A program made the position numbers and the translations under genes. From the IMG/VR virus record IMGVR_UViG_3300042303_000319, positions 1 through 22,796 of that record: a stretch of DNA of 22,796 nucleotides. One strand, written 5' to 3'. Of this stretch, positions 1 to 12,900 are shown piece after piece. The notes under the pieces are model-generated. The model searched no databases. It was not told the origin of the DNA and saw only the letters and a program-made list of their open reading frames with translations. Position 1 is the stretch's first letter. Each line of letters opens with the position of its first letter. This stretch comes from a virus.

Positions 1-105
1 TATTCCGCCGATTTGATATCTCCGCGCCTGCGCCCACAGGCTCACTTGCATAAGCGCGACAGCCAGTTCCTCCTCCAGTGCCTCAATGCGTTCATCATCA
101 CTCAC
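1..105 (-). CDS. small hypothetical protein, 5' part only
   Basis: The reading frame opens with a GTG and runs off the left edge of the window (35 residues visible, beginning MSDDERIEALEEEL). The GTG overlaps the TGA stop of the upstream cistron in a GTGA, and that gene's last codons supply an AAGGAGG SD sequence 8 bases before it. The first residues MSDD and the segment IEALEEE resemble the starts of other small proteins in this array (MSDDIFDR, RRIKALEAG), so it probably belongs to the same duplicated family. The length is too small for the usual ORF cut-offs and no function can be assigned. Confidence 0.6.
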   Translation of the reverse strand, partial: MSDDERIEALEEELAVALMQVSLWAQARRYQIGGI

Positions 106-131
106 TGGTCAGCCTCCTTGAGCAGAGCGCG
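102..131 (-). repeat. gene-junction module, copy 1
   Basis: Read on the minus strand this segment encodes the C-terminus RALLKEADQ of one cistron, carries AAGGAGG as the SD of the next, and ends in the GTGA stop-start overlap. The core (plus strand TCACTGGTCAGCCTCCTT) recurs exactly at 460, 663, 1097 and 1312. Confidence 0.9.
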
Positions 132-296
132 CAGCGCGAGAAGCAGTTGGTCTAGGTCAACGGCGTTGGGCCTTTGAAACTCGACGTATGCGATGGCGTC
201 GCTTACCCCGGCCTCCAGCGCCTTGATCCTGCGGCGTTGCTCTTTAATAAGAGCATTCCGTCGATCCAGCGCCCGGTCAAAAATATCATCACTCAT
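102..296 (-). CDS. small hypothetical protein with coiled-coil-like core, array cistron
   Basis: A 64-residue protein, MSDDIFDRALD...LLKEADQ, rich in R, K, E and L and probably largely helical. The motif EQRRRIKALEAG matches EQDRRIKALEGL of the protein encoded at 1097-1315, and the similarity is also visible in the DNA (212-243 versus 1234-1264), so the two are paralogues. It starts with ATG, unlike most cistrons of the array, overlapping the TGA of an upstream mini-frame. Its upstream junction is degenerate and lacks a clean AAGGAGG, having only TTTGGAG. It ends in the shared KEADQ tail that doubles as the next gene's SD. Function unknown. Confidence 0.65.
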   Translation of the reverse strand: MSDDIFDRALDRRNALIKEQRRRIKALEAGVSDAIAYVEFQRPNAVDLDQLLLALRALLKEADQ

Positions 297-312
297 TGGT
301 TAGGCTCCAAAG
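293..312 (-). repeat. gene-junction module, degenerate copy
   Basis: The minus strand reads TTTGGAGCCTAACCAATGAG, a decayed version of the AAGGAGGCTGACCAGTGAG junction. It keeps the CCA-(A/G)TGAG end and a GGAG. The next cistron uses ATG here instead of GTG. Confidence 0.6.
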
Positions 313-343
313 CGTTGAAGGGTGAAGGACAGGGCAGCCTCAC
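293..343 (-). CDS. possible 16-residue mini-cistron (or remnant)
   Basis: A GTG-initiated frame encoding 16 residues (MRLPCPSPFNALEPNQ) fills the space between the small membrane protein and the 64-residue protein. Its end (EPNQ, then TGA overlapping ATG) parallels the KEADQ-TGA junctions. Its GTG lies in CTGACCAGTGAGG, which repeats the 3' half of the junction module but lacks the AAGGAGG half. It may be the scar of a deleted cassette or a translational-coupling leader rather than a functional protein. Confidence 0.25.
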   Translation of the reverse strand: MRLPCPSPFNALEPNQ

Positions 344-346
344 TGG

Positions 347-463
347 TCAGTCACCGGTCATGTATCCGATCCACCGACCTATCATCCACACCATGAAAAC
401 AAAGACCATGACGACGATGGCGTAGAGGGCAAAGATTTCGTAACTATTCAGGTGTTCACTCAC
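347..463 (-). CDS. 38-residue single-span membrane protein
   Basis: A short GTG-initiated frame (MSEHLNSYEIFALYAIVVMV...) encodes 38 residues. Residues 10 to 28 (IFALYAIVVMVFVFMVWMI) are an uninterrupted hydrophobic stretch long enough to cross a membrane, followed by GRW and a polar tail. The GTG overlaps the TGA of the upstream cistron in a GTGA and is preceded by AAGGAGG at normal spacing, so translation is well supported despite the length. Small one-span proteins are common in phage early operons, but the sequence gives no specific function. It is the only array member with an obvious membrane segment. Confidence 0.65.
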   Translation of the reverse strand: MSEHLNSYEIFALYAIVVMVFVFMVWMIGRWIGYMTGD

Positions 464-480
464 TGGTCAGCCTCCTTGAG
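460..480 (-). repeat. gene-junction module, copy 2
   Basis: Exact copy of the 18-base core TCACTGGTCAGCCTCCTT plus GAG. On the minus strand it encodes LKEADQ-stop and carries the AAGGAGG and GTGAGTGA start of the 38-residue membrane protein. Confidence 0.9.
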
Positions 481-666
481 CCGGTCATACTCGGCCAGTT
501 CTTCGGCCAACTCGTCACGCACACTGACCATGCCGGCATACACGACACTATGCCCAAGCTCGCTAACCCCCGGTGGGACCTTCGCTAGATCAAATCTGGC
601 GAGTGCGGATTCAAACTCCGCCAGCCTCTGACGTGTGACTTCGTATTGCCTGCGCGACTTAATCAC
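460..666 (-). CDS. small helical protein resembling the N-terminal segment of some XRE-type regulators
   Basis: A 68-residue protein, MIKSRRQYEVTRQRLAEFESAL...DELAEELAEYDRLKEADQ, with a GTG start overlapping the previous TGA and AAGGAGG just upstream. The pattern RQYEVTRQRLAEFESAL followed by a second helix ELAEELAEYDRL resembles the coiled-coil segment that precedes the helix-turn-helix domain in some phage and antitoxin-type XRE regulators (ERQYRITKAQ... LAEYE.L). No DNA-binding domain is present here, so it would be the segment alone. The resemblance is recalled rather than searched; the function (possibly a dimerisation or modulator peptide) is inference. Confidence 0.6.
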   Translation of the reverse strand: MIKSRRQYEVTRQRLAEFESALARFDLAKVPPGVSELGHSVVYAGMVSVRDELAEELAEYDRLKEADQ

Positions 667-690
667 TGGTCAGCCTCCTTAAGCAGGGCC
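663..690 (-). repeat. gene-junction module, copy 3
   Basis: Carries the same core, TCACTGGTCAGCCTCCTT, with TAA in place of TGA after it; the minus strand still encodes LLKEADQ. It provides AAGGAGG and the GTG (664-666) for the 68-residue cistron. Confidence 0.9.
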
Positions 691-1100
691 TCGGCTTCGG
701 CGTATGTGGCGCACAGCGTGACGATGTATTCCTCGTCATCGTCTCGGGCCTCGCGCTCTTCGTCAGTGAAGACTTTGACCACTGCCCAAACAGACGGGCA
801 GGGGCGAGAAGTGTTTATCTCAAGGATCGACGTTCCCTCGGGAGGCGGTTTAAGCGCGCTGAATACAGCGTAGTCAACAGCCTCCTCCGCTGATAGGAAG
901 GACTGCGCTTCGTCGTTGGCGCGGTCGTCGTAAAACCACTGAGGTTCGTCGGCCTTCGCCAAAGCCTCCTCCAGCGCATCATGACTGGCCAGAAGCAGGG
1001 CGAGGTCGGCGCACTTTATCAGGGAGCCGACGCTCTCCACCGCCAGACTGGCATCAAGTTGTTTCTTGAGCCGCTCTTTGGCTTCTTGAACCTCACTCAC
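663..1100 (-). CDS. hypothetical acidic protein, largest member of the small-cistron array
   Basis: A 145-residue protein with a GTG start (MSEVQEAKERLKKQL) and the common C-terminus EALLKEADQ. Residues 1 to 55 look helical (KERLKKQLDASLAVESVGSLIKCADLALLLASHDALEEALAKAD). The C-terminal half (SVWAVVKVFTDEEREARDDDEEYIVTLCATYAEAEALLKEAD) is strand-helix in character and very acidic. It could be a fusion of an array-type helical segment with an unrelated domain. No family is recognised. Translation is coupled to the upstream gene through GTGA and a junction-encoded SD. Confidence 0.6.
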   Translation of the reverse strand: MSEVQEAKERLKKQLDASLAVESVGSLIKCADLALLLASHDALEEALAKADEPQWFYDDRANDEAQSFLSAEEAVDYAVFSALKPPPEGTSILEINTSRPCPSVWAVVKVFTDEEREARDDDEEYIVTLCATYAEAEALLKEADQ

Positions 1101-1126
1101 TGGTCAGCCTCCTTGAGCAGAGCGCG
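1097..1126 (-). repeat. gene-junction module, copy 4
   Basis: Matches copy 1 over about 30 bases (core plus GAGCAGAGCGCG). It encodes ARALLKEADQ-stop and supplies the SD and GTG of the 145-residue cistron. Confidence 0.9.
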
Positions 1127-1315
1127 GGCCTTTTTGACGGGCTCCATGTCGCGTTCGATGCGGCGGGGGAGGTCATTGGCGGAGCGCGCCTGAATCTCCT
1201 CCTCCAAGTCGTCGGCGCACTCCCTCAGCAGCCCCTCCAGCGCCTTAATCCTGCGGTCTTGCTCGGCGATCCGGGCGGCGTAGTTCTCTAGCCCCTTCTG
1301 CATCCAAAAGCTCAC
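1097..1315 (-). CDS. small hypothetical protein, paralogue of the 102-296 product
   Basis: A 72-residue protein beginning MSFWMQKGLENYAARIAEQDRRIKALEGLL and ending KKARALLKEADQ. The segment AEQDRRIKALEG is shared with the protein at 102-296 at both protein and DNA level. The first 45 residues are likely a continuous amphipathic helix or coiled coil. The start is a GTG in a GTGA overlap, with AAGGAGG encoded by the end of the preceding gene. Function unknown; within the array it supports growth by cassette duplication. Confidence 0.6.
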   Translation of the reverse strand: MSFWMQKGLENYAARIAEQDRRIKALEGLLRECADDLEEEIQARSANDLPRRIERDMEPVKKARALLKEADQ

Positions 1316-1341
1316 TGGTCAGCCTCCTTAAACAGAGCGCG
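1312..1341 (-). repeat. gene-junction module, copy 5
   Basis: Core TCACTGGTCAGCCTCCTT followed by AAACAGAGCGCG. On the minus strand it encodes ALFKEADQ-stop with AAGGAGG and GTGAG. A weaker seventh junction at about 1568-1590 (CGGAGGCTGCTCGTGA) looks like an older relative. Confidence 0.9.
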
Positions 1342-1575
1342 AATGTTCGCAATGGTTTCGCACAGGCCGCATGCGCTGGGGCCATCGTCGCCCAGATGGG
1401 ACCCGTTGTGGCCGTCTTTTTCGACCTCGTAAATCAGGACGCCCAGAGACAGCCGCAGGTTCCCAATCCGTTCAGCGGATGCGGCCTGACCGGCGCGGTA
1501 GGCCGTCGCCAGTTGCACGGCGGGAATGTCGCTTTGCTCCCTCACCCATTGCAGGGCCTCGTCGAGTTCAGTCAC
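1312..1575 (-). CDS. hypothetical protein, first cistron of the junction-linked array
   Basis: An 87-residue protein, MTELDEALQWVREQSDIPAVQLATAYRAGQ..., ending NIRALFKEADQ. The start is a GTG that overlaps the end of the upstream gene by 8 bases, with GGAGG a few bases before it. The N-terminus is helical. The middle contains HNGSHLGDDGPSACGLC, with two cysteines in a CxxC arrangement (CGLC) and several histidines. This could hint at a small metal-binding knuckle, but that is weak. No family is recognised. Confidence 0.6.
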   Translation of the reverse strand: MTELDEALQWVREQSDIPAVQLATAYRAGQAASAERIGNLRLSLGVLIYEVEKDGHNGSHLGDDGPSACGLCETIANIRALFKEADQ

Positions 1576-1963
1576 GAGCAGCCTCCGATCCGTTGAGGAC
1601 GTAGTGGAGGAGGTAATCGGCCAAACCCACCACGCCGTCGTCCCAAAGCCCTTGCGGGTCCGCCGCCACCGCCAGCTTCAGGCACTCCAGACGGAGGTTG
1701 ATGAGGTCGGGTTCAGACGGCAGCGCCTCGCTCGACCTTTTCGGCCAGCTATCCCACGGCGCAAACGGCTCCTCGGGCTCCGGGGGCTTGGCGGGGGTGA
1801 TGATGCGGTAGTGGGTGATGCAGGGGTCCGACCAGCGAAAGCGGCGGGCAGGCCTTGGGGGCGACCAGTCGATTATGCTTGCGCCGTGCTTGATCCGCAC
1901 CTCCACCACCGTCTCCGGGTCTACCGGGCAGGTGTCGGTTGTGTGTTCGATCCAGTCGGTCAC
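1568..1963 (-). CDS. hypothetical protein sharing an N-terminal module with the DUF3310 protein
   Basis: A 131-residue protein. Residues 1 to 55 (MTDWIEH..P-DPETVVEVRIKHG...ITHYRII) align with the first 60 residues of the adjacent upstream gene's product (MTEWIKW..P-PGTMVEVRYRNG...IVAYRFL). A proline-rich linker (PAKPPEPEEP) follows, then a helical C-terminal region (INLRLECLKLAVAADP...ADYLLHYVLNG). The start is a GTG overlapping the previous TGA (GTGA). The shared module, two tryptophan-containing strands ending in YR, is common in small phage proteins, but I know of no established function. Confidence 0.65.
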   Translation of the reverse strand: MTDWIEHTTDTCPVDPETVVEVRIKHGASIIDWSPPRPARRFRWSDPCITHYRIITPAKPPEPEEPFAPWDSWPKRSSEALPSEPDLINLRLECLKLAVAADPQGLWDDGVVGLADYLLHYVLNGSEAARD

Positions 1964-2361
1964 CGCTTTCCCTCCGCTTTCCCCGCCATCGCCCAGCGCA
2001 GGTAGTCCTCAGCCTTGATGAGGGACAGGTCACCGCCCTTGTGCTTCTCGCGCCAGACGTACTTCAGCACGTTGCCCTTGCAGTAGCCGCGCCACTCCTC
2101 GTCGGTCAGCGCAGCGCGGATCGCGTCGATGCACTCGATGTCGCCCTGACGGTAGTGTTCGTTGGTGGATGGGCCCCGCCCGAGGAAGCGGTAGGCGACG
2201 ATGTCAGCTGCGGAGTTTGCCCGCCCCGGAGAGGGGACATGCCCCCAATGCAGGCGAGCCGCATCAGTACCCTCCACATCTCCGTTGCGGTACCTCACCT
2301 CGACCATCGTGCCGGGAGGCACGGGGCGTTCGCCCCCATCCCACTTGATCCACTCGGTCAT
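1960..2361 (-). CDS. DUF3310 protein (T7 gp1.7-related) with extra N-terminal module
   Basis: A 133-residue protein. Residues about 75 to 130 (NEHYRQGDIECIDAIRAALTDEEWRGYCKGNVLKYVWREKHKGG...AEDYLRW) match the DUF3310 pattern: HY..G.iE.id.i, an F/Y-C-.GN..KY..R..KK.G segment, then D..KA..YL. The same family includes T7 gp1.7, a nucleotide kinase, so a role in nucleotide metabolism is possible; the conserved residues alone do not prove kinase activity. Residues 1 to 60 are the WI...VEVRY...YR module shared with the next gene downstream. The ATG overlaps the upstream TGA by one base (TGATG). Its neighbour is MazG-like, which fits a nucleotide-pool cluster. Confidence 0.75.
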   Translation of the reverse strand: MTEWIKWDGGERPVPPGTMVEVRYRNGDVEGTDAARLHWGHVPSPGRANSAADIVAYRFLGRGPSTNEHYRQGDIECIDAIRAALTDEEWRGYCKGNVLKYVWREKHKGGDLSLIKAEDYLRWAMAGKAEGKR

Positions 2362-2762
2362 CAGTACGACTTGCCTCCATCCTTCACGCGGTTCTCCAGC
2401 TTGTGGTCCGCACGGGTTGCGTTGTAGGCCAGCTTGTCAGCGACGGCCTGTCCCAGCGGCAGGCCCAGCCCGCCAGCCAGATCGAAGATGCGGATGATCG
2501 CGTCACCAAGCTCCACCGTCAGCGACGTGTACTGCGGCAGGTGATCGTCCATCCGGTTCTTGCGGTGACCCTCCATCGCCTCGGCCACCTCGGACACGAT
2601 GAGCATGAGGGCCTCGCCCACGTTGCGCTCCTTGCGCCCGCCAGTCGCGGGGTCGGTCCACCACCCAGACTTCATGGCCCTTTCGTGGCACAGCGCCACG
2701 CCGTATTCGATGAAGGAGGACAGCACCTGCTGCTCCATATCCATGTCTTCACTGTGGGTCAT
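2361..2762 (-). CDS. MazG-like nucleotide pyrophosphohydrolase
   Basis: A 133-residue protein from the start MTHSEDMD at 2762, chosen because its ATG overlaps the upstream stop as ATGA and has GAGGAAGG before it. A longer frame begins 17 codons earlier, inside the upstream gene. The MazG-type all-alpha NTP-PPase signature is visible: NVGEALMLIVSEVAEAMEG (ExxE helix), HRKNRMDDH, then TVELGDAIIRIFDLAG (ExxD helix), which bind Mg2+ and the nucleotide triphosphate. The tail AVADKLAYNATRADHK is also typical. The family hydrolyses (d)NTPs to monophosphate and pyrophosphate. Phage copies are thought to tune nucleotide pools or dampen alarmone signalling; which applies here is not visible. Confidence 0.85.
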   Translation of the reverse strand: MTHSEDMDMEQQVLSSFIEYGVALCHERAMKSGWWTDPATGGRKERNVGEALMLIVSEVAEAMEGHRKNRMDDHLPQYTSLTVELGDAIIRIFDLAGGLGLPLGQAVADKLAYNATRADHKLENRVKDGGKSY

Positions 2763-3101: not shown

Positions 3102-4922
3102 CTATCCAGTCACCGATACATAGTCACTGTTCGCCACCGGCGCAAGGTAGCTGACATAGCGATGCGTCTTTGAATATGCGTCGTCCACAAATTGCATGGA
3201 CGGCCCGTTCCAGTGCAGGCCAACGCGCCCTTCCCACTCGCCGTTCCGCTGCTTCGAGCAGGTGAGGTACGAGTCGGGCTCCGTCTTCAGGGAGTCGGGC
3301 GGCTCACCCTCGAAGCGAGCCTCGGTCATCCGCTGCTCCTTGCTCTTGTTCCGCCAGATCGTGAGGACGGTGTCGGCGAGGTCGGTGATCGAGCCACTGC
3401 CCTTCACGTCCATCTTGCCGGTCGGCGTGTCTTCGCTCTCGCCCTTCCGGCTGTGCGTGACGAGGAAGACGATGGCACCGCTGACGTTCTTGAAGTCGCA
3501 CAGCGCCTCCATGAAAGCCTTCTGCCCGTTGTAGTCGTCGTCCCCGATCCCGCACTTGCTCATGTTGTCGATCACGAACACGTCGATGCCGTACCTGCGG
3601 CGGGCGTAGTCGAAGACCTCGAGCATGCGCGTGGTCTTGGCCGTGCCCACGAGGTCAAAGAGCCAGAGCTTCCCGGCGTACCAGTCGATGACGGCGTTGG
3701 CGTACGGCTCGGTCATGTCGCCCACGCCACCGGCCTGCCTCGTCAGGCGCGAGAGCAGTCGACGTGCTGGCATCTCCATCGAGGCGATGCACACACGCAG
3801 GTCAGAGGCCATCGCGTCGAGGGAAAGCTGGCCCGCAAGCTGCGACTTCCCGTGACCGTTGATGCCGTTGAGGATGATCAGTTCCGCATCGCGGAAGCGG
3901 AGCCTGCGCTCGAGTGCGCGGAAGCGGGACGCGAAGCCAGCCGTCTCCGCATCGTCGGAGAACATCTCCTTGATGATCGCCTCGCGGTACTCCACCGCAG
4001 ATCGCAGTTCGTCAGGGTCCTGCGCCTTGGCCGTGGCGCGGATGTCGTCAATCGAGACGCCAGCCAGCAGACACTCGTTCATGTCCTTCTTCGGCATCGT
4101 GACGAACAGACAGCGATGCGTGCCCAGACGGTCGGCGATCTCCTTGGCTGCAGCCTGACCCTCGTCGTCCATGTCGAGCGCGAGGTAGATGGTCTGGAAG
4201 CGGTCGAGGTTGTCGTACTCGTTCTCGATCCACTGCTGCTTCGCACCACCGCCACCGCCGAAGGGAACGCTGAGTGCGGACACGCCCATCTCGTACGCCG
4301 ACATTGCGTCGATCTCGCCCTCGGTGATCCACACCTCTCGGGCCGATGGGCTCACCGCCTGCCACCCGAACAGCGACGGCATCTGGTTGGCGCTCGTCGG
4401 GCGCTGGTCCTTCTTGTCGCTGATCGACCGGTACTTGATCATCTTCGGCTCGCCAGTGGGCGAGATGAAGGGGAACACCACACGGTCAGCATCGGCACCA
4501 ACGCGGAACGCATTGACCGTCACATCCGACAGTCCTCGAGCGGACAGCCACTCCATCACCGGGCCCTGCGCCTTGGTCAGGGACTTCGGTCGTGCGGGCG
4601 GCTCGTAGGTTTTCTTCGGGGCCACGAACGTCGGGCGCTCGACACCGAGCCACGACCTCGCCTCATCCAGCGCAGTCGAGAGGGGGACGCCGCGCACCGC
4701 AGCCCAGAGGTCGATCAGGTCACCGCCCACCTCGCCGCTGGCGAAGTCTCCCCACACGCCGATCTTCGCGCCGCTCATGTGAACGCGCAGCGACTGGCCC
4801 TTGCTGCCATCCGTTCCGCCGACACAGTACTCAGACCCGGCGACCACACCGGCTGGCAGCAGGTGCCGCAGCGTGGCGAGGATCGATCCGTTCAGCCTCG
4901 CACTCACCTCATGGATTTGCAT
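3102..4922 (-). CDS. bifunctional DNA primase-helicase (T7 gp4/Twinkle-like)
   Basis: A 606-residue protein. An N-terminal segment (residues 1 to 90) resembles a primase zinc-binding domain (SLRVHMSGAKIGVWGDFASGEVGGDLIDLW) but lacks the paired cysteines that normally hold zinc. A Toprim domain follows: ITEGEIDAM with Glu201, then ALDMDDEGQ with Asp250 and Asp252 as the metal-binding DxD. The DnaB/RecA-type helicase domain has the Walker A NGINGHGKSQL with Lys359, IASMEMP (motif 1a-like), VFVIDNMSKC (Walker B-like), and FLVTHSRKG followed by GSGSITDLADTVLTIWRNK. It would unwind the fork and probably prime lagging-strand synthesis. It overlaps the upstream initiator gene by 14 bases. No phage DNA polymerase is visible in the window. 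Confidence 0.9.
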   Translation of the reverse strand: MQIHEVSARLNGSILATLRHLLPAGVVAGSEYCVGGTDGSKGQSLRVHMSGAKIGVWGDFASGEVGGDLIDLWAAVRGVPLSTALDEARSWLGVERPTFVAPKKTYEPPARPKSLTKAQGPVMEWLSARGLSDVTVNAFRVGADADRVVFPFISPTGEPKMIKYRSISDKKDQRPTSANQMPSLFGWQAVSPSAREVWITEGEIDAMSAYEMGVSALSVPFGGGGGAKQQWIENEYDNLDRFQTIYLALDMDDEGQAAAKEIADRLGTHRCLFVTMPKKDMNECLLAGVSIDDIRATAKAQDPDELRSAVEYREAIIKEMFSDDAETAGFASRFRALERRLRFRDAELIILNGINGHGKSQLAGQLSLDAMASDLRVCIASMEMPARRLLSRLTRQAGGVGDMTEPYANAVIDWYAGKLWLFDLVGTAKTTRMLEVFDYARRRYGIDVFVIDNMSKCGIGDDDYNGQKAFMEALCDFKNVSGAIVFLVTHSRKGESEDTPTGKMDVKGSGSITDLADTVLTIWRNKSKEQRMTEARFEGEPPDSLKTEPDSYLTCSKQRNGEWEGRVGLHWNGPSMQFVDDAYSKTHRYVSYLAPVANSDYVSVTG

Positions 4923-5742
4923 TTTCGAGTTCCTTCTTCACCGCCCAGTACTGCGGCATGAGTTCGTCACGCATGTGCGGGGCGCTCTCGATGGTTCCAC
5001 GGAGGCGGAACAGTTCGGCCTCCAGTTCCTTCCTGCGTTCATGCCCGATCACGGGCTTGCGCTTCGGGTCACCCTGCGGGGTGAAGATGCCCCGCCACCC
5101 ACGCTCGATGCAGTGAGAGATCACAGCGCCTGCATCCCATCCAGCTTCGACAGCGAGGGTGATGCGACGGATGCTCTCGCGCTGGGTAGAGACCGCCATC
5201 GGTTTGCGGTCCCGCTCCTTGCGGTACTCGACCCACCGAAGCCAGTCAGCCTCGGCCAGAAAATCCGGAAGCACTATCTCTTCCTTCTTTTCTTTTTCCT
5301 TCTTTCCTTCTTTCTTTCTTTCTTGTGTGTCCCGACTGCTTCCCTGTTCCTGTCCCGTCTGCTTCTCGTCAGCCTTCTCGTCTGCTTCGCGATCAAGCTG
5401 ATATTTGTCGTAATTACAGATGGTTAGGGTTCGTCCGCCGTTATCGGATGCTTCCTCAATCATGTCCCACTCGCATAGGCGCTTGAGGTACCGCTCAACG
5501 CGGCCCTTCTCCCACCTCCAAGCGGACTGCAGGGCCCGCAGCGAGGTGTGAAGCTGACCCCTGCGAACTGTGACGGCACGACCATTCGCGTCACTGCGAA
5601 GGGTGTCCCTCCACGCAGCATGCTCGATCAGCCAGAGCCATGCTCCGTACTCATCAAGCTCGCGCTTCGGGTATGAGGAAAAGAACTCGCACTCGCGAGC
5701 CTTGCGATGGACGACAAACCAGCCGCCGTGATCGGTGTTCAT
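4909..5742 (-). CDS. replication initiator-like protein (lambda O type) carrying a candidate origin
   Basis: A 277-residue protein. Residues 1 to 115 look like a winged-helix replication-protein domain (GWFVVHRKAREC..., GAWLWLIEHAAWRDT, RGQLHTSLRALQSAWRW, GRVERYLKRLCEWDMIE, RTLTICNYDKYQ). A charged linker (about 116 to 156) follows. The C-terminal domain (DWLRWVEYRKERDRKPMAVSTQRESIRRI...AISHCIERGWRGIFTPQ) is typical of phage O/DnaD-like proteins. The start ATG at 5742 has GAGGT at good spacing. It is the first gene of the leftward operon, directly upstream of the helicase it is expected to load or cooperate with. The linker DNA carries out-of-frame iterons and a purine tract, the layout of lambda ori inside O. 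Confidence 0.75.
   Translation of the reverse strand: MNTDHGGWFVVHRKARECEFFSSYPKRELDEYGAWLWLIEHAAWRDTLRSDANGRAVTVRRGQLHTSLRALQSAWRWEKGRVERYLKRLCEWDMIEEASDNGGRTLTICNYDKYQLDREADEKADEKQTGQEQGSSRDTQERKKEGKKEKEKKEEIVLPDFLAEADWLRWVEYRKERDRKPMAVSTQRESIRRITLAVEAGWDAGAVISHCIERGWRGIFTPQGDPKRKPVIGHERRKELEAELFRLRGTIESAPHMRDELMPQYWAVKKELENANP
5274..5326. other. polypurine/polypyrimidine tract, candidate origin-melting element
   Basis: About 50 bases that are almost pure pyrimidine on the plus strand (runs of TTCTTTCC) and much richer in A:T than the surroundings. The minus strand encodes the lysine/glutamate linker KKEGKKEKEKKEE of the initiator gene. Such a tract could melt easily or form triplex DNA. 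It directly abuts the iteron-like repeats. Confidence 0.5.
5328..5388. repeat. iteron-like direct repeats, candidate replication origin
   Basis: Three copies of CGWCTGCTTC (plus strand) start at 5333, 5356 and 5379, exactly 23 bases apart. The first two extend to 15 bases, TGTCCCGWCTGCTTC (5328-5342, 5351-5365). A weaker copy, CGTCAGCCTTC, starts at 5367. Because 23 is not a multiple of 3, the copies lie in different reading frames of the initiator gene, so the repeat is conserved as DNA rather than as peptide. Spacing near two helical turns is usual for initiator iterons. Confidence 0.6.
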
Positions 5743-5886
5743 TTCTACCTCGTCGTTCGGCCCGCGCCTCCAAAGCGAGGACCAGTTCGCGCTCTAAAAA
5801 ACCGTGGCGGTCATGCAAGAAATCCGACGAGGAGTTTGCATAGAGCGCATGACGTTTCGGGAGCTACCCTAGCCACGGCGATCCGA

Positions 5887-5915
5887 GACATAAGCCACCG
5901 CTTCGATCCACGCAA
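5887..5915 (-). promoter_or_regulatory. possible leftward promoter
   Basis: The minus strand reads TTGCGT (5910-5915), a 17-base spacer, then TATGTC (5887-5892). It lies about 145 bases before the initiator gene. Only the most conserved positions match a sigma70 promoter, and it overlaps the inverted repeat at 5896-5922, as an operator-controlled promoter might. Confidence 0.25.
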
Positions 5916-5932
5916 GCGGGTGACGGCCAGAT

Positions 5933-5970
5933 TTTTCCTCGACGCGCATCAGCGTAGCAACTGAGGAAAA
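5933..5970. promoter_or_regulatory. inverted repeat, candidate operator
   Basis: TTTTCCTC (5933-5940) is mirrored by GAGGAAAA (5963-5970), with half-site centres 30 bases apart, close to three helical turns. An inner ACGC/GCGT pair lies between them. The long separation and lack of a T-tract fit a protein-binding site better than a terminator. Confidence 0.4.
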
Positions 5971-6021
5971 TATGAGCCGCGCATAAATCATCTCGTCCAC
6001 AAAGATATGAAGCGGTGAAGG

Positions 6022-6049
6022 TTGACCACGGCGAACGCATCGCTATGTT
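6022..6049 (+). promoter_or_regulatory. possible rightward early promoter
   Basis: TTGACC (6022-6027), a 16-base spacer and TATGTT (6044-6049) resemble sigma70 -35 and -10 boxes. They sit about 45 bases upstream of the annealing-protein start codon. The AAGCGGTG copy at 6010-6017 lies just upstream of the -35 box. Confidence 0.35.
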
Positions 6050-6092
6050 GTCCACTTCACGGCGACAAACGGTCATGGATTGCGGAGCGCAA

Positions 6093-6734
6093 ATGACATC
6101 GACGGCAGCGACTATCTGGAAGACCCTGTCCTCCATCAACGTCAACGATCACATCGAGAAGAAGCAGGGCTTCAGCTATCTCAGTTGGGCGTGGGCGTGG
6201 GGTGTGCTGATGGAGCATTACCCCGAGAGCGAGTTCGAGTTCCTGAAAAGCACCGACAGCGGCAGCGAGGCGTTCGCGTCTCCTGACGGCACGTTCGAGG
6301 TGCGCTGCCGCCTTTCGGTGGTGGCGGACGGCAAGATCGTTGAGCGCGAGATGTGGCTCCCGGTGATGGACCACAAGAACAACGCCATCAAGAACCCGAA
6401 CTCCCGCGACGTGAACGACGCGAAGATGCGGTGCCTCGTGAAGGCGATGGCCCTGTTCGGTCTGGGCCACTACATCTACGCGGGCGAAGACCTGCCGGAT
6501 GCGTCGAAGGCTGCGCCGAAAACGGACGCAGCGCCGAAGCCCGAGGCTGCACCGCAGGCCCCGGATGCCCAGCGAGACCACCTGCTCAGAGACATCCATC
6601 TTGCGCCCGACATCGACGCGCTGAAGGCTGCGTTCGCCAAGGCTGCGCGGTACGCCAAGAACCGTGGTGAGACTGAACTGCTCGACGCCTTTACGCTGGC
6701 GAAGGACATCCGCAAGGGGGCGCTCGGGCAATGA
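6093..6734 (+). CDS. single-strand annealing protein, DUF1071/Sak-like recombinase
   Basis: A 213-residue protein from the ATG at 6093, chosen because GGAG lies 6 bases upstream and the conserved domain begins there; the frame stays open upstream to 6015. The core TIWKTLSSINVNDHIEKKQG, FSYLSWAWAWGVLMEHYPES, EMWLPVMDH...NPNSRDVNDAKMRCLVKAMALFGLGHYIYAGEDLP matches the DUF1071 family of phage annealing proteins. These coat ssDNA left by an exonuclease and anneal complementary strands. An Ala/Pro-rich linker (about residues 145 to 175) leads to a helical C-terminal segment. The stop overlaps the exonuclease start (ATGATG), coupling the two proteins as in other phage recombination pairs. Confidence 0.88.
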   Translation: MTSTAATIWKTLSSINVNDHIEKKQGFSYLSWAWAWGVLMEHYPESEFEFLKSTDSGSEAFASPDGTFEVRCRLSVVADGKIVEREMWLPVMDHKNNAIKNPNSRDVNDAKMRCLVKAMALFGLGHYIYAGEDLPDASKAAPKTDAAPKPEAAPQAPDAQRDHLLRDIHLAPDIDALKAAFAKAARYAKNRGETELLDAFTLAKDIRKGALGQ

Positions 6735-7639
6735 TGCACGAACAGGGAACTGAAGGCTGGCTCGCACAGCGGGTCGGCAAGATCACCGGCTCTCGCGTCG
6801 GCGCGATCCTCGGCATGAACCCATACTCCTCGGAGCAGGACGTTCTGCGCGAGATGGTGCGTGAGGCTTTGGGTGCGGAGCGCGAGTTCAAGGGCAACGC
6901 CGCCACTGATCACGGCACCCGCCTCGAGCCCGTTGCCATCGAGTGGTACGAGTCTACGTCTGGCATGTCGGTCGAAAGCACCGGCTTTGTCTGCCACGAC
7001 GAGATCGACTGGCTGGGCGCATCGCCCGATGGCCTGCTCGGTCTCGATGGCGGCATCGAGGTGAAGTGCCCGTACTGGGCGAAGGAGCCCTACAGCATCG
7101 AGAGCAAGCCCTACTACTGGGCCCAGATGCAGACGGTCATGGAGGTCTGCGACCTCGAGTACATGATCTTCATCTGCTTCATCTCCCCGACGAGCAATCG
7201 CGTGGAGCGCGTCGAGCGAGACCGTGAATGGTTTCACAGCGTGGCGATGCCGAAGCTGGAAAAGTTCCACAAGAAGTTCACCGACAGCATGGCCGGTGAT
7301 CACTCTGCCTTCCTCTCGGTTCCCGCCGTCCACGTCGACGACGATGAGACCAAGCGGATGGCCGAGCTTCTGTTCGAGTCGATCCTCCTCAAGGAAAAGC
7401 TCGAGCCCATCGAGGCCGAGATTTCGGCACTGAAGAAGAAGATGGGTGAGGCGCACGGTTCGTTCGCCTCCACCTACTTCGACCTGAAGCGGGTCCAGAA
7501 GAAGGGCTCTGTCGATAACAAGCGCCTCTACGCCGATGTCGGTGTGGAGAAGCTCCTCATGCAGATGGGGAAATCCCTTGACGACTACCGGGGTGAACCG
7601 GTGGTCAGCTACAGCATCATCAGCAAAGGAGACGTGTGA
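6731..7639 (+). CDS. YqaJ-family exonuclease (lambda Exo-like)
   Basis: A 302-residue protein with the PD-(D/E)XK nuclease layout: ITGSRVGAILGMNPYSS, HGTRLEPVAIEWYE, WLGASPDGLLG (Asp100), GIEVKCPYW (Glu110, Lys112) and YYWAQMQTVMEVC. These are the catalytic metal-binding residues and the conserved QxQ-type segment of YqaJ recombinases. It would resect dsDNA 5' to 3', leaving ssDNA for the annealing protein encoded immediately upstream. A helical C-terminal extension (residues about 205 to 300) includes a coiled-coil-like KEKLEPIEAEISALKKKMGE. Two ATGs are adjacent at the start; 6731 overlaps the previous stop. Confidence 0.9.
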   Translation: MMHEQGTEGWLAQRVGKITGSRVGAILGMNPYSSEQDVLREMVREALGAEREFKGNAATDHGTRLEPVAIEWYESTSGMSVESTGFVCHDEIDWLGASPDGLLGLDGGIEVKCPYWAKEPYSIESKPYYWAQMQTVMEVCDLEYMIFICFISPTSNRVERVERDREWFHSVAMPKLEKFHKKFTDSMAGDHSAFLSVPAVHVDDDETKRMAELLFESILLKEKLEPIEAEISALKKKMGEAHGSFASTYFDLKRVQKKGSVDNKRLYADVGVEKLLMQMGKSLDDYRGEPVVSYSIISKGDV

Positions 7640-7827
7640 TGCCCCGCCCGAAGAAAGAACACCAGACCCGCCTCATCCAGACGACCGTCGATGAAGGCAT
7701 GTACCGCGCCCTTTGCGAGCAGGCGCTGTACGAGGATCGTCCGCTCGCTTCCGTCATTCGACAGGCGCTGTCGATGTACTTCGCCCACATCAACCGGAGT
7801 CGCGCCCGGTCCTCGGAACTGGTCTAG
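7639..7827 (+). CDS. ribbon-helix-helix (CopG/Arc-like) DNA-binding protein
   Basis: A 62-residue protein, MPRPKKEHQTRLIQTTVDEGMYRALCEQALYEDRPLASVIRQAL.... The basic arm, a short strand (TRLIQTTVD) and two helices separated by a turn (MYRALCEQALYE / PLASVIRQALSMYF) are the usual ribbon-helix-helix arrangement of dimeric regulators that bind DNA with the paired strands. The ATG at 7639 overlaps the exonuclease TGA (TGATG) and follows AAAGGAG. A GTG one codon earlier is also possible. It is the only likely transcription factor in the window, so it may act on the divergent control region. This is inference. Confidence 0.65.
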   Translation: MPRPKKEHQTRLIQTTVDEGMYRALCEQALYEDRPLASVIRQALSMYFAHINRSRARSSELV

Positions 7828-7838
7828 GAGATCGCCCA

Positions 7839-8129
7839 ATGGCGTACGAACAGAAGCCCAACACCTTCACCCTCTTCCGCGACAGCGACGAGACCGTCGC
7901 CAAGCGCCGCGAGTTCTACAAGGAGAAGGGGTGGGAGGGTGACCCTCCGATCTACTCCGGTCGCCTCGTCCTCGAGGACGGCACCGAACTGAACATCGAG
8001 GCTCGCGTCATCGACGGCCAGAAGGGCAAGTTCTTCGCTGGTCGCGTGTGGAAGAAGAAGGACGCGGCCCCGGCCCAGTCCAACTCGCGGTCCAACAACA
8101 TCGACCTCGACGACGAGATTCCGTTCTAG
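7839..8129 (+). CDS. small SSB-like protein with acidic DDEIPF tail
   Basis: A 96-residue protein. The N-terminal part (residues 8 to 72: NTFTLFRDSDETVAKRRE..., IYSGRLVLEDGTELNIEARVIDG, GKFFAGRVWKKKD) is rich in alternating beta-like residues with aromatic positions, as in a reduced OB-fold. A flexible QSNSRSNN linker leads to LDDEIPF. That terminus closely matches the D-D-D-I-P-F tip by which bacterial SSB recruits RecO, PriA, exonuclease I and other partners. It is shorter than classical SSB (about 170 residues) and I do not recognise the core family with certainty. AGGAG lies 8 bases before the ATG. The position beside the recombinase pair supports an ssDNA-binding role. Confidence 0.6.
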   Translation: MAYEQKPNTFTLFRDSDETVAKRREFYKEKGWEGDPPIYSGRLVLEDGTELNIEARVIDGQKGKFFAGRVWKKKDAAPAQSNSRSNNIDLDDEIPF

Positions 8130-8135
8130 GTGGCG

Positions 8136-8157
8136 GCGGGGGGCTTCGGCCCCCTGC
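8136..8157 (+). terminator. strong GC hairpin with TTCG tetraloop (attenuator/terminator candidate)
   Basis: GCGGGGGGC - TTCG - GCCCCCTGC forms a 9-bp stem with one G-T wobble, capped by an exceptionally stable UUCG loop. It starts 7 bases after the SSB-like stop codon. Only TTT follows, so termination may be partial, leaving reduced transcription of the CsrA-like gene and integrase, or the hairpin may protect mRNA ends. Confidence 0.5.
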
Positions 8158-8179
8158 TTTCCAAAGGGAAAGAGAGAGC

Positions 8180-8524
8180 ATGCTGAGTATCGTCCGAAAG
8201 GCAGACGAGGCTTTCTACGGAGGCTTCGACATCACCACGGACCCGGAGGACACCTACGACCACGTCGTCACTCTGGTGCGCGTGGTGGACAACCTCCGTG
8301 AGCGTTACGCGATCTTCGAGATCGAGGACGCGGATGGTGAGGTGGACCGTGTCCGCCTCGATGCCGACAACACCTCCGTCAAGTTCGGCCCTGCCGAGAT
8401 GCACCTCGTTGGGGTGCATGTCTATGGCATCTCCGGTGGTCGGGATCACCTCGGTGTCCGCATCGCCATTGATGCGCCGCAGGAGTACCGGATCGTGCGT
8501 GACGACGCGAAGAGGAAAGTCTGA
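8180..8524 (+). CDS. CsrA/RsmA-like RNA-binding protein with a large internal insertion
   Basis: A 114-residue protein. Its N-terminus MLSIVRKADEAFYGGFDIT lines up with CsrA (MLILTRRVGETLMIGDEVT), keeping Leu2, Arg6, a basic residue 7, Glu10 and Gly15. Its C-terminal part VGVHVYGISGG...GVRIAIDAPQEYRIVRDD lines up with CsrA strands 3 to 5 and helix start (VTVTVLGVKGN.QVRIGVNAPKEVSVHREE), keeping VRI (93-95), AP (99-100), Glu102 and Arg107. The latter corresponds to the key RNA-contacting Arg44. About 55 acidic residues (roughly 20 to 75) are inserted between strands 2 and 3; normal CsrA has about 61 residues in total. CsrA dimers bind GGA motifs, often over SD sequences. The ATG follows a purine-rich AAAGGGAAAGAGAG. 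The family call rests on visual alignment. Confidence 0.7.
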   Translation: MLSIVRKADEAFYGGFDITTDPEDTYDHVVTLVRVVDNLRERYAIFEIEDADGEVDRVRLDADNTSVKFGPAEMHLVGVHVYGISGGRDHLGVRIAIDAPQEYRIVRDDAKRKV

Positions 8525-8736
8525 TGTGGGTCGGCAAGAAGCTGGTGCCGTACGGCATCGCCGAGATGGCCGACGTCATCACTCTCCGCAAGCGGTACCC
8601 CACGGTCCACCGCCTGCGTAAGAGCGACCGGTCCATCGAGTGCGTGAAGGACAAGAACGGTGAGTACCTGTGGGTGGTCGGCAACGACATCCTCCCCGAG
8701 AGCAAGATGAAGGCTCTGGCAAGCGAACTGGTATAG
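8524..8736 (+). CDS. small basic hypothetical protein upstream of integrase
   Basis: A 70-residue protein, MWVGKKLVPYGIAEMADVITLRKRYPTVHRLRKSD...GEYLWVVGNDILPESKM.... The ATG overlaps the preceding TGA by one base. A helix with basic residues (DVITLRKRYPTVHRLRKSDRS) followed by a hairpin-like VKDKNGEYLWVVG could be a small winged or other DNA-binding fold. Its place immediately before the integrase is where excisionase (Xis) or integrase-control genes often lie. That role is inference from position and charge only; no family is recognised. Confidence 0.55.
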   Translation: MWVGKKLVPYGIAEMADVITLRKRYPTVHRLRKSDRSIECVKDKNGEYLWVVGNDILPESKMKALASELV

Positions 8737-8749
8737 TCGCCCTGCTGGA

Positions 8750-8765
8750 GCCTCCGACTGGAGGC
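8750..8765 (+). promoter_or_regulatory. hairpin sequestering the integrase ribosome-binding site
   Basis: GCCTCC (8750-8755) pairs perfectly with GGAGGC (8760-8765) around a 4-base GACT loop. GGAGG is the integrase SD, 4 to 8 bases before the ATG at 8769, so the folded form hides it. This would keep integrase translation low unless ribosomes or a factor open the stem. Confidence 0.55.
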
Positions 8766-8768
8766 ATT

Positions 8769-9599
8769 ATGGAAAAGACGTGGAACGACGCTGCAGAGCG
8801 GTGGCTGAAGTCGAGGGCTGGACACCGGTGGCAGAAGCAGGAGGAGGGGTACGTCACCCGCCTCACGCACTACCTCGACGGCAAGCCCCTGAAGGAAATC
8901 ACCAAGGGGGTGGTGGCTGACATTCGGGACGGGCTGCTGGAACACAGGCAAGCCCCGACCGTAAACCGTCACCTGACGGTTCTCCGCGCCATCCTCAACA
9001 GGGCGAAGGACGACTGGGACTGGGTCGACACTGTCCCCAAGATCAGGAAGGTGGAAGAGGGTCAGCCTCGCGAGCGGTACCTCGAGAAGGACGAGGCTCG
9101 GAAGCTGATCCAGTGCTGCCCTCCCCATCTGCGGGACAAGGTGATCCTCGCCCTGTCCACCGGCCTGCGGGACCGCAACATCCGAGAGCTTCGGTGGGAC
9201 GAGGTGGACCTGCCCAACCGGCAGATCACCATCCCCGGCACGAAGATGAAGAGCGGGAAGACGACCACCATCCCCATCAATGAGGTTGCGTGGGAGCTTC
9301 TGAGGAAGCGCAGGAAGTCGACGAGCCGACACCCGGAGTGGGTCTTCGCCTATGGTGGCAAGCCCGTCCACAGGTCAGGCACACGCGCCTTCCGCAAGGC
9401 CCTGAAGCGGGCCGGGATCGAGGACTTCAGGTGGCATGACCTGCGGCACACATGGGCGTCTTGGCATGTTCAGGCCGGGACCCACACTGCAGCCGTGCGC
9501 GAGCTTGGTGGATGGTCGGACGACCGGATGGTCAAGCGGTACGCCCATCTGTCCACGAAGCACCTGCGTAAACAGGCAGAAAACATCGGTGGCCTGTAA
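8769..9599 (+). CDS. int: tyrosine-family site-specific integrase
   Basis: A 276-residue protein. Residues 1 to 85 form the core-binding SAM-like domain (WNDAAERWLKS..., LKEITKGVVADIRDGLLEH, TVNRHLTVLRAILNRA). The catalytic domain has Arg134 (LSTGLRDRNIRELRW), the beta-hairpin lysine region (KMKSGKTTTIPI), His223-x-x-Arg226 (WHDLRHTWASW), Trp at the H/W position (ELGGWSDDRMVKRY) and nucleophile Tyr258. It lacks a long arm-binding N-terminus, being compact for a phage integrase. It would recombine attP with the host tRNA-Gly gene; the attP core starts only about 50 bases past its stop. The start at 8769 follows the GGAGG held in a hairpin. Confidence 0.92.
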   Translation: MEKTWNDAAERWLKSRAGHRWQKQEEGYVTRLTHYLDGKPLKEITKGVVADIRDGLLEHRQAPTVNRHLTVLRAILNRAKDDWDWVDTVPKIRKVEEGQPRERYLEKDEARKLIQCCPPHLRDKVILALSTGLRDRNIRELRWDEVDLPNRQITIPGTKMKSGKTTTIPINEVAWELLRKRRKSTSRHPEWVFAYGGKPVHRSGTRAFRKALKRAGIEDFRWHDLRHTWASWHVQAGTHTAAVRELGGWSDDRMVKRYAHLSTKHLRKQAENIGGL

Positions 9600-9647
9600 A
9601 GCACCACCGATTAATTCGCCGTTTAGGTTTGTCTCGTAAGTGACTGA

Positions 9648-9697
9648 TGGAGCGGGTGAAGGGACTTGAACCCTCGACCTCGACCTTGGCAAGGTCG
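9648..9697 (-). other. attP: phage attachment site attP, tRNA-Gly(GCC) 3' half
   Basis: Read on the minus strand, this is the 3' half of a tRNA-Gly. It has an anticodon stem-loop CGACC-TTGCCAA-GGTCG (9681-9697, anticodon GCC at 9688-9690), a variable loop, a T arm GAGGG-TTCAAGT-CCCTT, an acceptor strand CACCCGC, a discriminator T and an encoded CCA ending at 9648. The 5' half (acceptor and D arm) is absent. Phages that integrate into tRNA genes carry exactly such a segment, which restores the gene's 3' end after recombination. It lies next to the integrase and is oriented towards it. Confidence 0.85.
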
Positions 9698-9808
9698 TTG
9701 GCTCCAGCACCGCAATAAACCCAAGGAACTCAAGGGGTTGCGTTCTGGTCCTCAACCGCAACATCATGAGCGCGATTAAGTGTAGCATTTTGATGTTCTG
9801 ATAGGGAT

Positions 9809-9841
9809 GGGGAGGCGGGCCTTTCGCGCACCCGCCTCCCC
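9809..9841. terminator. 11-bp perfect GC hairpin between convergent operons
   Basis: GGGGAGGCGGG (9809-9819) and CCCGCCTCCCC (9831-9841) are perfect complements around an 11-base loop. There is no T-tract on either side, so it may not act as a classical intrinsic terminator. Its place 67 bases beyond the end of the late operon and in front of attP suggests a transcript barrier or 3'-end stabiliser. Confidence 0.5.
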
Positions 9842-9907
9842 TGACGGTGGCCTAGGGAGGGCTCGATCCACCGAGGTCCAAGATGTAGGATCGAACCCGC
9901 TTCCTGT

Positions 9908-12900
9908 CTAGCCCCCACGCTTCGCGTCGGCGACCATCTGGTTCACCTCCATCATGAGGGTCAGCATCTCCTCATCGAGGAGGTCGCGTTCCTCCTGCGT
10001 CTCGGCTGCCTTCTTCGCCTTGCGGAGAGATTTGATCTCGCTCTCGTACTTGGCGACGTCCGAGTACAGGAACGCCTCGGGGTTCTTCTCGAGGTACGGG
10101 GTGGTGTCCTTGCCGTCCTCGTCGCGCCCCTCGATCTCCCGCTCGTGGCGGTTCATCTGGGTCACGTTCTCGTAGTACCGGCTGGTCACCGAGAAGGACT
10201 CATTCGCGTTGCCGATCATCCGGCCCACGACCGGAATCTTGTAGGACGGAACCTCTTCGCTGGTGACGATGGAGCGCCCGACAGAGGTGACCTTCATGAT
10301 CTCCCGGCCCACGCCGCCCGTCGCCTGCCCGATGAGGTAGTCGATGGCGTCCCCCGTGGGGCTCACAGCACCCGGCGTGTAGCCCGATCCACCCGTCAGA
10401 CGGTCGATGGCGAAGGAGAGAGCGGCACCCACGGGGCTGACACCGGCGCGATTGCGGTCGGGCCCCGGCGTGGGGTCGAGGTTGTTCATATTGGCTTGGT
10501 AAATCTGCCGACCGGCGAAGTCCCGGTTCTCGGACAGCGCAGCCAGAGGATCAACCACGGTTGGCGTGACCACCTGCAGTAGGGAACCGCCAGACCCGAT
10601 GGGGTTGAAGGCGTCCATGATCACACCGGCCATGCCGATCACGTCCTTCTGGATCGGGTCGTCATTGCCGAACGCCTCGATGGCGCGTCGGGAGAATGCG
10701 GGGATCGCGTGATAGCCCAGCGGCATGGGGAAGGCGAAGTACCTGCCGCCACCCAGAGGGATGATCACGTTGCGGTCCTTGACCCACTCGGGGATGTCGT
10801 CATCAAGCCCGGCCAGCCCGAGCATCACAGCCTGCGCCACGCCCAGCAGAAGGCCACCAGCGACGATCTTGCGACCGGCGGGACCGGTGATGGTCTGGGC
10901 CATTCGAGCCGTGCCCTGAACGCTCGCATTGAAGAAGGCGTACAGCGCACCGACCTCGGCACCGACAGCGCCTCGACGGTTGAAGTTGACGGTCAGGTTC
11001 TTGGCGACCGAAGCGGCCTTGGCGTTGCTGAGGCCAGCATCCTTCGCCGCCTTGTACGCGGCCAGACGGACGCCGTTCTCGACGGTCTCGTTGAAGTCCG
11101 AGAGCCAGTCGAACGCAGCGCCAGCCGTCTTCATCGTGGCCGTCAGCGGGCCCTTGGAAAGCTCGCGCTCGATAGCCTTGGAGCGATCCTCAGCGTTGGC
11201 GAACAGGTCACGGAAGCCGGTCTTGCCGCCCTCGCGCTCGAACTCCTCGGCAAGAGTTTCCCACTGGCCCTGCGCGGTGCCGCCCCTGCGACCCTGCCGC
11301 AGTTCGCGGTAGATGCCAGCCATCGCGGGGAAGCTGTCGCGGAGAACCTGCGCCTCCTTGCCTACAATCGGGGTGCTGCTGAGGTTCAGCGCCGCACCCT
11401 GCAGGTCTCGCATGAGGTTGTAGAGGCCGAAGGCGGGGTTGTACTGGGTGTTGATGGCCGCGAAGTAGCGGGTCACCTTCGCCACACCCGACAGCATCTT
11501 CATCATCTCGATGTTGCCCGCGCCCTTGAGGGCCTCGACCATCCGCTTGGCCTGCGGGTTGCGGGGATTGAAGATGATGAAGCGATCCTCGCCGTTGATG
11601 CGGGTCGCCATGACGTTGTCCGCCATGCTGAACAGGCGGTTCGGGCGGTGGATCACCTCACCCGTGGACTGGTCGATGTAGCGTTCCTGCGGCGGCGCGA
11701 AGACAGCCTCGGCATCCATCGGATCGATGCCAAAGTCGACCAGTTTCCGGACGGACTCTGCCTTGTTCGAGCCCTTGGGATCGACCACGAACCAGAAGGA
11801 GTCGTTCGGGTTCTCGAGAGCCAGACCGATGAGGGCGTTGCCCACGCGGTTGCGCTCAGAGCGGGAGATCGCCCGCTCACGCTGCTGCGCGATGTTGGAC
11901 AGGACGTTGACCACGTTCCGGTCGGAGCCCATCGCACGGCGGGAAGAGCCACCACGCACCGACATCCCGGCACCAGCCGACATCTCCTCGTCCTCGAAGC
12001 CCTCGCGGAACAGGGGGACGTAGTTCTGGTAGGCGCGGTTCCAGTTGTTGATGGTGTCCTGCGTGTCCAGACCACCGGCGACAATGAGGCGCTGGGTCTC
12101 CTGCACCATGCCGTCAACGCGGGCGGCAAGCTGCTCAAGCTGGCGGCGGCGCAGGGGCGCAAGGCCGTTGAGGTAGCTGGTCGCATCCGCATCGGTCATG
12201 CCAGAGCCAGCGTTCATCGCCGGATTGATCTTCCGGATTTGAGCGTTGCGCTCCACGGCATGGCGGGCATGCAGGAACTTGTCGAGGTCCGCCAGCTTGA
12301 TGCCCTTCTGGGACATCTCCTGCAGCAGGGGGTTCAGTTCCCGGTTCAGGAAGTTCTTGCTGAGGCTGGTGGCGCGGCCAGAGGAAAGCTCCTCAGCCAT
12401 GTAGGCGTCGGACCTCTCGTTGATGGTGCGGCCAGCCTTCTGGATGTCCTGCTGCACCCGCTTGGTGTCGATGTAGCGGTCCTGCAGCTTGTAGATGATG
12501 TCGTCCATCGTCTGGGCACGAGGCGACGTATCGACCTGCTGACCGCCGAAGTTGAGGTTGTTGTCGTTGAACCTCGGCGCGGAGCGCAGCGGGATGGAGG
12601 ACGGGGGAGCGACGGTTCGGCGGGAGTACCTCGCCGTCATCTCCCCGCGCTCGTCGATGTCCATGCGAGCGGAGCCGCCATTACGGACAATGAACTCAGC
12701 CTGACCGGCGCGATCAGTTACCCAGATCACGTCGTCGAGAGGGACATCAGCTTCCTTGATCAGCTTGCTGCGCTCACTGTTCCGGCTGTCCAGAAAAGCC
12801 CTGCGCTCGGCCTGCTCGGTCTGGGCGTTGACAAGCTCGCTGCGGAGATCGCTGACCGGGACGCTGGTGATAAACTCCTCGTCGCCAGTCGGCTCGCCCT

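Follow-up and report, generated by a model that had tools for sequence, protein, structure and literature searches.

Small genes of unrelated families are joined in several lineages of phages by one and the same 18-nt sequence, TCACTGGTCAGCCTCCTT. We found it at the left end of a viral contig (IMG/VR record IMGVR_UViG_3300042303_000319; 22,796 bases, analysed at full length from base 1 and referred to below as the window), and it probably acts as a portable linker that couples translation and also provides the homology by which phage annealing recombinases exchange cassettes. Exact copies start at 102, 460, 663, 1097 and 1312 (plus-strand coordinates), precisely where an initial annotation of the window had listed them, with none expected by chance in shuffled sequence; no additional copy was found in the window when up to three mismatches were allowed. 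The copies at 1097 and 102 have an exact run of 34 nt in common. Nothing lies to the left of base 1 in the record, so there is no sequence in that direction in which to count more copies.

The genes are on the minus strand, where the module is AAGGAGGCTGACCAGTGA and every exact copy reads AAG GAG GCT GAC CAG TGA, or KEADQ-stop. Each of the five carries AAGGAGG and ends in the GTGA overlap that starts the next open reading frame (ORF), as originally described. A perfect Shine-Dalgarno (SD) sequence is followed after a 7-nt spacer by the start codon, GTG or sometimes ATG, which overlaps the stop. The TGA of the module closes upstream frames 1 and 3, and frame 2 is closed if GTGAGTGA follows. The module thus contains the final codons of the upstream cistron with their stop, together with the SD and start of the downstream one, and its architecture (perfect SD, 7-nt spacer, stop/start overlap) suggests that translation of each cistron is coupled to that of the preceding cistron. 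Because the module is self-contained and closes the upstream reading frames, a cistron bounded by modules could be set beside another and still be translated.

Degraded versions are also present. The decayed copy reported at 293 is there, with five mismatches (293-310), and a half copy at 340-357, absent from the initial list, has four mismatches and keeps the final 11 nt of the module intact. The 16-codon ORF between them ends LEPNQ-stop and is apparently a vestigial cistron with a decayed KEADQ-stop tail. The copy suspected at 1568 did not hold up: 1572-1589 differs from the module at 10 ungapped positions, has only GGAGGCTG..C.GTGA in common with it, and is no clear copy.

It is the DNA that is conserved, not the peptide. 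A scan for AAGGAGGCNGAYCARTGA, which covers the synonymous forms that keep the SD, returned at least 100 stretches, and the counts are minima. Among the stretches compared, the GCT-GAC-CAG form occurs 38 times in 21 contigs; every other form was seen a single time in any one contig, mainly in genes that were orthologous or unrelated. Of the Ala codons in the module records, 16% are GCT. The gene that ends in the module of G014 runs through it in frame 2 (..ERRLTSE-stop). We conclude that DNA rather than peptide is conserved because, of the synonymous forms searched, a single one repeats within contigs and because of this alternative frame. A C-terminal KEADQ acting as a functional tag (a degron or interaction motif) would fit a tail that is identical in most copies, but is hardly credible: the codons are fixed as well, some copies have E, Q, A, G, R or N in place of the K, one upstream gene uses a different frame across the module, and the unrelated module of contig L092 (see below) is read in two frames. 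The fixed codons and alternative frames largely refute the tag.

In a scan of viral contigs, the exact 18-mer was found in 22 stretches from 21 records, many with two to four copies, and complete records hold additional copies with one or two mismatches. Sorted by gene calls and pairwise DNA comparison, these phages represent about six or more unrelated backbones. Lineage A (G006, G011, G014, G015, G019, G021 and others; full-length records of ~61-84 kb) is related by its terminase (60.5%) to Caulobacter phage RW, which has neither module nor cassettes. Lineage B comprises G009, G010, L112 and L119, and lineage C comprises G001, G003, G012 and G016. Lineage D consists of the window and G005 (94.8% across 7.9 kb), and G007, G008, G013 and G017 stand apart from all four. 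A genome collection yielded nine matches, namely two arrays (L126 and L128) in contigs of metagenome-assembled genomes and seven single copies that look like chance matches; one of the arrays is on a 62.9-kb contig binned with Aestuariivirga and matches lineage A. Among GenBank phages, none came close to the window in DNA and three of the cassette proteins had no match, and a more distant DNA search with the operon matched mainly the MazG-like gene. An assembly artefact was rejected, as the G006 array recurs in G019, a record from another metagenome, with 99% identical DNA, and 18 nt is shorter than a read.

The genomes of the module phages range in G+C from 0.44 to 0.69 and the arrays from 0.53 to 0.64, and in eight of nine phages checked the array departs from its genome toward an intermediate value (e.g., an array of 0.585 in a genome of 0.444, and one of 0.566 in a genome of 0.656). 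The exception is G005, whose measured stretch also includes non-array genes. The arrays are probably exchangeable, with phages of several lineages drawing on a single pool of small accessory cistrons.

The joint stays the same while the genes on either side change. The 18-mer came first among the 761 close gene junctions of an unbiased census: its 38 copies lie in 34 gene contexts, and the genes behind them belong to 27 families; the runner-up, AAGGAGACTGCACGATGA (KETAR), occurred in five contexts. Most copies are at -4 overlaps. For 31 copies with mutually non-homologous flanks on both sides, similarity and information drop at the edges of the 18 nt; choosing these copies by motif builds in the high values within it, but not the fall outside. 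The cistrons might instead be paralogues from tandem duplication that retained only their tails. The statement that the proteins share nothing else was in fact too strong: the tail is shared, and so are heads (MTEPDEALLWARE, MSDDERIKALE, TDWIEHDGGPQPVADDVWV) and internal segments (YRAGQAASAERIKALEE), which are common to several families of the pool. Paralogy is nevertheless very improbable and was rejected, because many of the 27 families behind the same 18-mer lack any similarity and conservation ends at its edges; the same cassettes also occur in unrelated backbones.

Homology breaks at the module. In alignments between arrays, 93 of 637 high-scoring segment pairs have their left end at the module start, where 7.8 were expected (maximum 32 in 500 permutations), and 33 right ends fall at the module against 7.6 expected (maximum again 32 in 500). 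Homology on one side only, extending over 78-599 nt and stopping 0-7 nt beyond the module, was seen in 32 copy pairs, one of which is formed by the two ends of a single contig. Overall, flanking homology is one-sided in 95 of the 101 module pairs that have any (94%). Individual cassettes show the same pattern. The cistron at 460-666 (68 aa) has a counterpart in G009 that is 0.89 identical but lies between two other genes, and cassette c96 has different upstream neighbours in G010, G011, G021 and L072. In the close pairs G009/G010 and G011/G021, the shared backbones are 92-93% identical and the array content between the modules differs. The proposal of a cassette system built on a portable junction is borne out by the 34 gene contexts, the homology breaks and the swapped neighbours. 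The search of other phages that the initial annotation had called for revealed conserved modules with differing genes between them; rather than the same cistrons in the same order, with junctions no more conserved than gene bodies, these closely related backbones carry different cistrons.

We infer the mechanism of recombination, and its benefit, from these patterns. Most likely, phage recombinases would anneal homologous copies of the module, which offer 18-34 nt of exact identity, and selection would then favour products in which coupled translation is intact. Among 2196 non-homologous copy pairs, 327 have exact runs of at least 23 nt and 44 of at least 31 nt; minima for pairing are 23-27 bp for Red-beta and 31-34 bp for RecA, as quoted by De Paepe and colleagues (PMC3945230). 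Annealing proteins turned up in G007 and in all four lineages A-D: a Gp2.5-like protein with a DUF2800 exonuclease in A, Sak4 in B, Erf in G007 and most of C, RecT in G003, and Sak in D (the window and G005), accompanied in the window by a RecE-like exonuclease. These proteins may act on the module.

Several observations weigh against annealing at the module as the general route. Many exact runs are just 18-22 nt, under the quoted Red-beta minimum, and several records, many of them fragments, gave no annealing protein match with the models used. At other junctions in the same phages, homology is one-sided in 71% of cases, compared with 94% at modules. Most alignment ends in arrays fall away from modules, and six contexts have the intragenic segment GGCCGCATCCGCCGAG (QAASAERIK) in common. 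Without motif selection, 52 of 169 neighbour-swapped homologue pairs keep at least 12 of the 14 nt that precede the start, versus 24 of 302 controls; with only 52 kept, exchange often takes place without the module, or the module decays. A control dealing junctions randomly among contigs was set aside, as the pool includes orthologous contigs. The module is accordingly a preferred but not exclusive joint, one hotspot among several.

The same observations bear on an alternative in which illegitimate recombination strikes anywhere and only those joints that keep the module survive, the module being maintained by selection purely as a translation or coupling element. One-sided homology at junctions without a shared module and the majority of homology ends lying elsewhere both speak for it, as does pairing of the module with the anti-SD, which beats most random spacers (6.7% are as strong, i.e. 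it is only mildly unusual). We consider this account unlikely, since an SD needs no identical 7-nt spacer across unrelated genes, quite different sequences are used in other phage pools, and many homology blocks stop exactly at the module edge. The invariant spacer and the position before starts would also suit a binding or processing site, for RNA or for a protein such as a translational regulator, that spread with the genes. This is one reading of the start-associated sequences (SAS) of mycobacteriophages, left open by their authors (PMC3203893). Such a site is a rather remote prospect here: by eye, with no fold or promoter scan run, the 18-mer has no evident symmetry, inverted repeat, stem-loop or promoter, and sequence-unrelated modules play the same part in other phages, so that no single ligand fits all.

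Modules of the same architecture were unexpected where they appeared, among the controls. The baseline for repeated junctions was 75 unrelated contigs and 53 others chosen by an arbitrary 15-mer. Contig L092 (85,805 bases) carries seven exact copies of the 22-mer GGAGCGTCGAGCCGTGAGTGAG on the minus strand of 4810-8163. They lie within 3.4 kb, have unlike flanks, form the junctions of unrelated small ORFs and read RSVEP-stop or GASSRE-stop; no other viral contig carries this 22-mer. Contigs L063, which matches isolated Lacticaseibacillus phages, and L031 have GAGGACGAAAAATGA-type junctions, and between two of these one cistron is precisely present or absent, with identities outside it of 0.96 and 0.95. 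Eight GenBank phages have junctions of this type (phiAT3, R9.1, LJ, BH1, Lrm1, C3.1, R23.9 and the large herellevirus Lb338-1; L251-L258), with peptides of the EDEK-stop/EVTDDE-stop type. A limited literature search found no published description of them. A separate observation is the junction CGGAGCAGCCCGCAATGA (SSPQ-stop) on the plus strand of L086 (7594-8028); two of its copies are exact and a third has two mismatches.

Of the 53 arbitrary contigs, one had a twice-shared junction with unlike contexts, so arrays are uncommon and the device is not universal. One tentative generalization is that stop-SD-start linkers are a repeatedly evolved phage device, each pool having its own linker (KEADQ here, RSVEP in L092, EDEK in Lacticaseibacillus phages), and that annealing recombinases acting on these linkers turn accessory regions into exchangeable, translation-coupled arrays of mini-genes. 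This is possible, and we hold it with less conviction than the account of the KEADQ module itself.

Table 1. Array, operon and annealing genes of the window
Feature	Position	Strand	Remark
Cistron MSDDERIEALEEEL.., cut by contig end	1..105	-	relative in G006
Junction module, exact	102..119	-	ends 102-296; gives SD and GTG start to the cistron running off base 1
Cistron MSDDIFDRALDRRN..RALLKEADQ, 64 aa	102..296	-	its relatives in G011 and G021 follow other genes
Decayed module, 5 mismatches	293..310	-	ATG start of 102-296
Apparently vestigial 16-codon cistron VRLPCPSPFNALEPNQ-stop	293..343	-	flanked by two decayed modules
Half module, 4 mismatches, last 11 nt exact	340..357	-	end of 347-463
Hydrophobic cistron, 38 aa	347..463	-	probably a membrane protein, from its sequence
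Junction module, exact	460..477	-	
Cistron MIKSRRQYEV..RLKEADQ, 68 aa	460..666	-	~0.89 identical in G009 (lineage B)
Junction module, exact	663..680	-	
Cistron MSEVQEAKERLKK..EALLKEADQ, 145 aa	663..1100	-	relatives in G021 and L128
Junction module, exact	1097..1114	-	34-nt exact run with copy at 102
Cistron MSFWMQKGLENY..ALLKEADQ, 72 aa	1097..1315	-	in G005 behind the same gene, with a different next gene
Junction module, exact	1312..1329	-	
Cistron MTELDEALQWVRE..ALFKEADQ, 87 aa	1312..1575	-	first of array
Degenerate junction GGAGGCTGCTCGTGA	1572..1589	-	identical in relative G005; no clear module copy
Upstream neighbour TDWIEHTTDTCPV.., 131 aa	1568..1963	-	
DUF3310 protein, 133 aa	1960..2361	-	same operon
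MazG-like pyrophosphatase	2361..2762	-	same operon
DNA primase/helicase	3102..4922	-	same operon
DnaD-like helicase loader	4909..5742	-	first minus-strand gene of operon
Sak-like single-strand annealing protein	6093..6734	+	candidate agent of cassette exchange
RecE-like exonuclease	6731..7639	+	partner of Sak

The array forms the distal end of a minus-strand gene run that opens with the helicase loader and primase/helicase (Table 1). An integrase near a tRNA-Gly, together with Sak and the RecE-like exonuclease on the plus strand, suggests that the window phage is probably temperate; the tyrosine integrase is at 8769-9724, and the tRNA-Gly(gcc) adjoining it on the opposite strand is a candidate attachment site. 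The array cistrons matched no nin family in Pfam or PHROG (a direct comparison with nin proteins was not made). For the commonest cassette family (TDWIEHDGGPQPVADDVWV..), the predicted fold has a mean pLDDT (predicted local distance difference test) of 75 and gave no informative structural match; an alignment of this family (L147:17503-17805 and relatives) has a highly variable stretch at residues ~21-38 between conserved blocks. Elsewhere in the window, 9908-19981 is an ORF of 3357 aa with PHROG matches of unknown function that are strong only in the last 860 residues. In the G006 contig, 47527-50043 (L140) encodes the lineage A large terminase with an apparent intein at residues ~48-407, and the Caulobacter phage homologues align only from residue 408; at 7521-10670 (L138), a DNA polymerase region is interrupted by a GIY-YIG-type endonuclease-like ORF, as judged by eye.

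A question described as open (PMC3233612) is whether mosaic joints at gene borders in phage genomes arise by recombination targeted to conserved boundary sequences or form at random and are then sifted by selection. With one linker up to five times per array, in several lineages and with many breakpoints at its edges, the question becomes testable at the bench, the more so as isolated Lacticaseibacillus phages carry a sequence-unrelated counterpart. The linker is also a handle for finding families of small accessory phage genes that are otherwise annotated as unrelated hypothetical ORFs.

The closest parallel in the homologous-recombination model of mosaicism is the short conserved boundary sequence at phage mosaic junctions, which joins unrelated genes and where recombination is thought to be targeted (PMC3233612). 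The module likewise stands at borders of unrelated genes (the 31 copies), and homology breaks there; unlike boundary sequences it is coding, packs stop, SD and start into 18 nt, and is present up to five times per array and in several lineages. The likeness to the SAS of cluster K mycobacteriophages, drawn at the outset, stands for position and SD content and fails for location. SAS are repeats of an asymmetric 13-mer with an SD core just before the starts of unrelated genes in the non-structural half (PMC3203893); they mostly precede genes more than 50 bp apart, with mostly ATG starts, half of them have inverted repeats, and the section consulted does not link them to cassette exchange. The module, too, is an SD repeat a few nt before the starts of different gene families, but it lies inside the preceding gene, with most copies at -4 overlaps instead of in gaps of >50 bp, and AAGGAGGCTGACCAGTGA does not match the 13-bp SAS consensus GGGATAGGAGCCC.

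PeSL of T4-like phages, as cited in PMC4503421, also recurs at gene borders as an expression element and is said to bring about the shuffling of modules; it is a promoter-terminator stem-loop acting on transcription, whereas the module would act at translation. The lambda ninR chain (Kroger and Hobom 1982, cited in PMC8022706) is also made up of small non-essential genes with ATGA overlaps and is mosaic among relatives. The module arrays resemble it in small genes, NTGA overlaps and an SD inside the preceding gene, and differ in that the nin junctions examined have no 18-mer in common. The early regions of Lacticaseibacillus phages come near in having recurrent stop-SD-start junctions between non-homologous genes, one-sided homology, and precise gain and loss of cassettes, with junctions of unrelated sequence that use ATG starts and are less uniform. 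In the accounts consulted, none of the boundary sequences, SAS, PeSL and nin chain unites what the module does: a stop-SD-start linker that lies in coding sequence, has many copies in one array and is common to several lineages.

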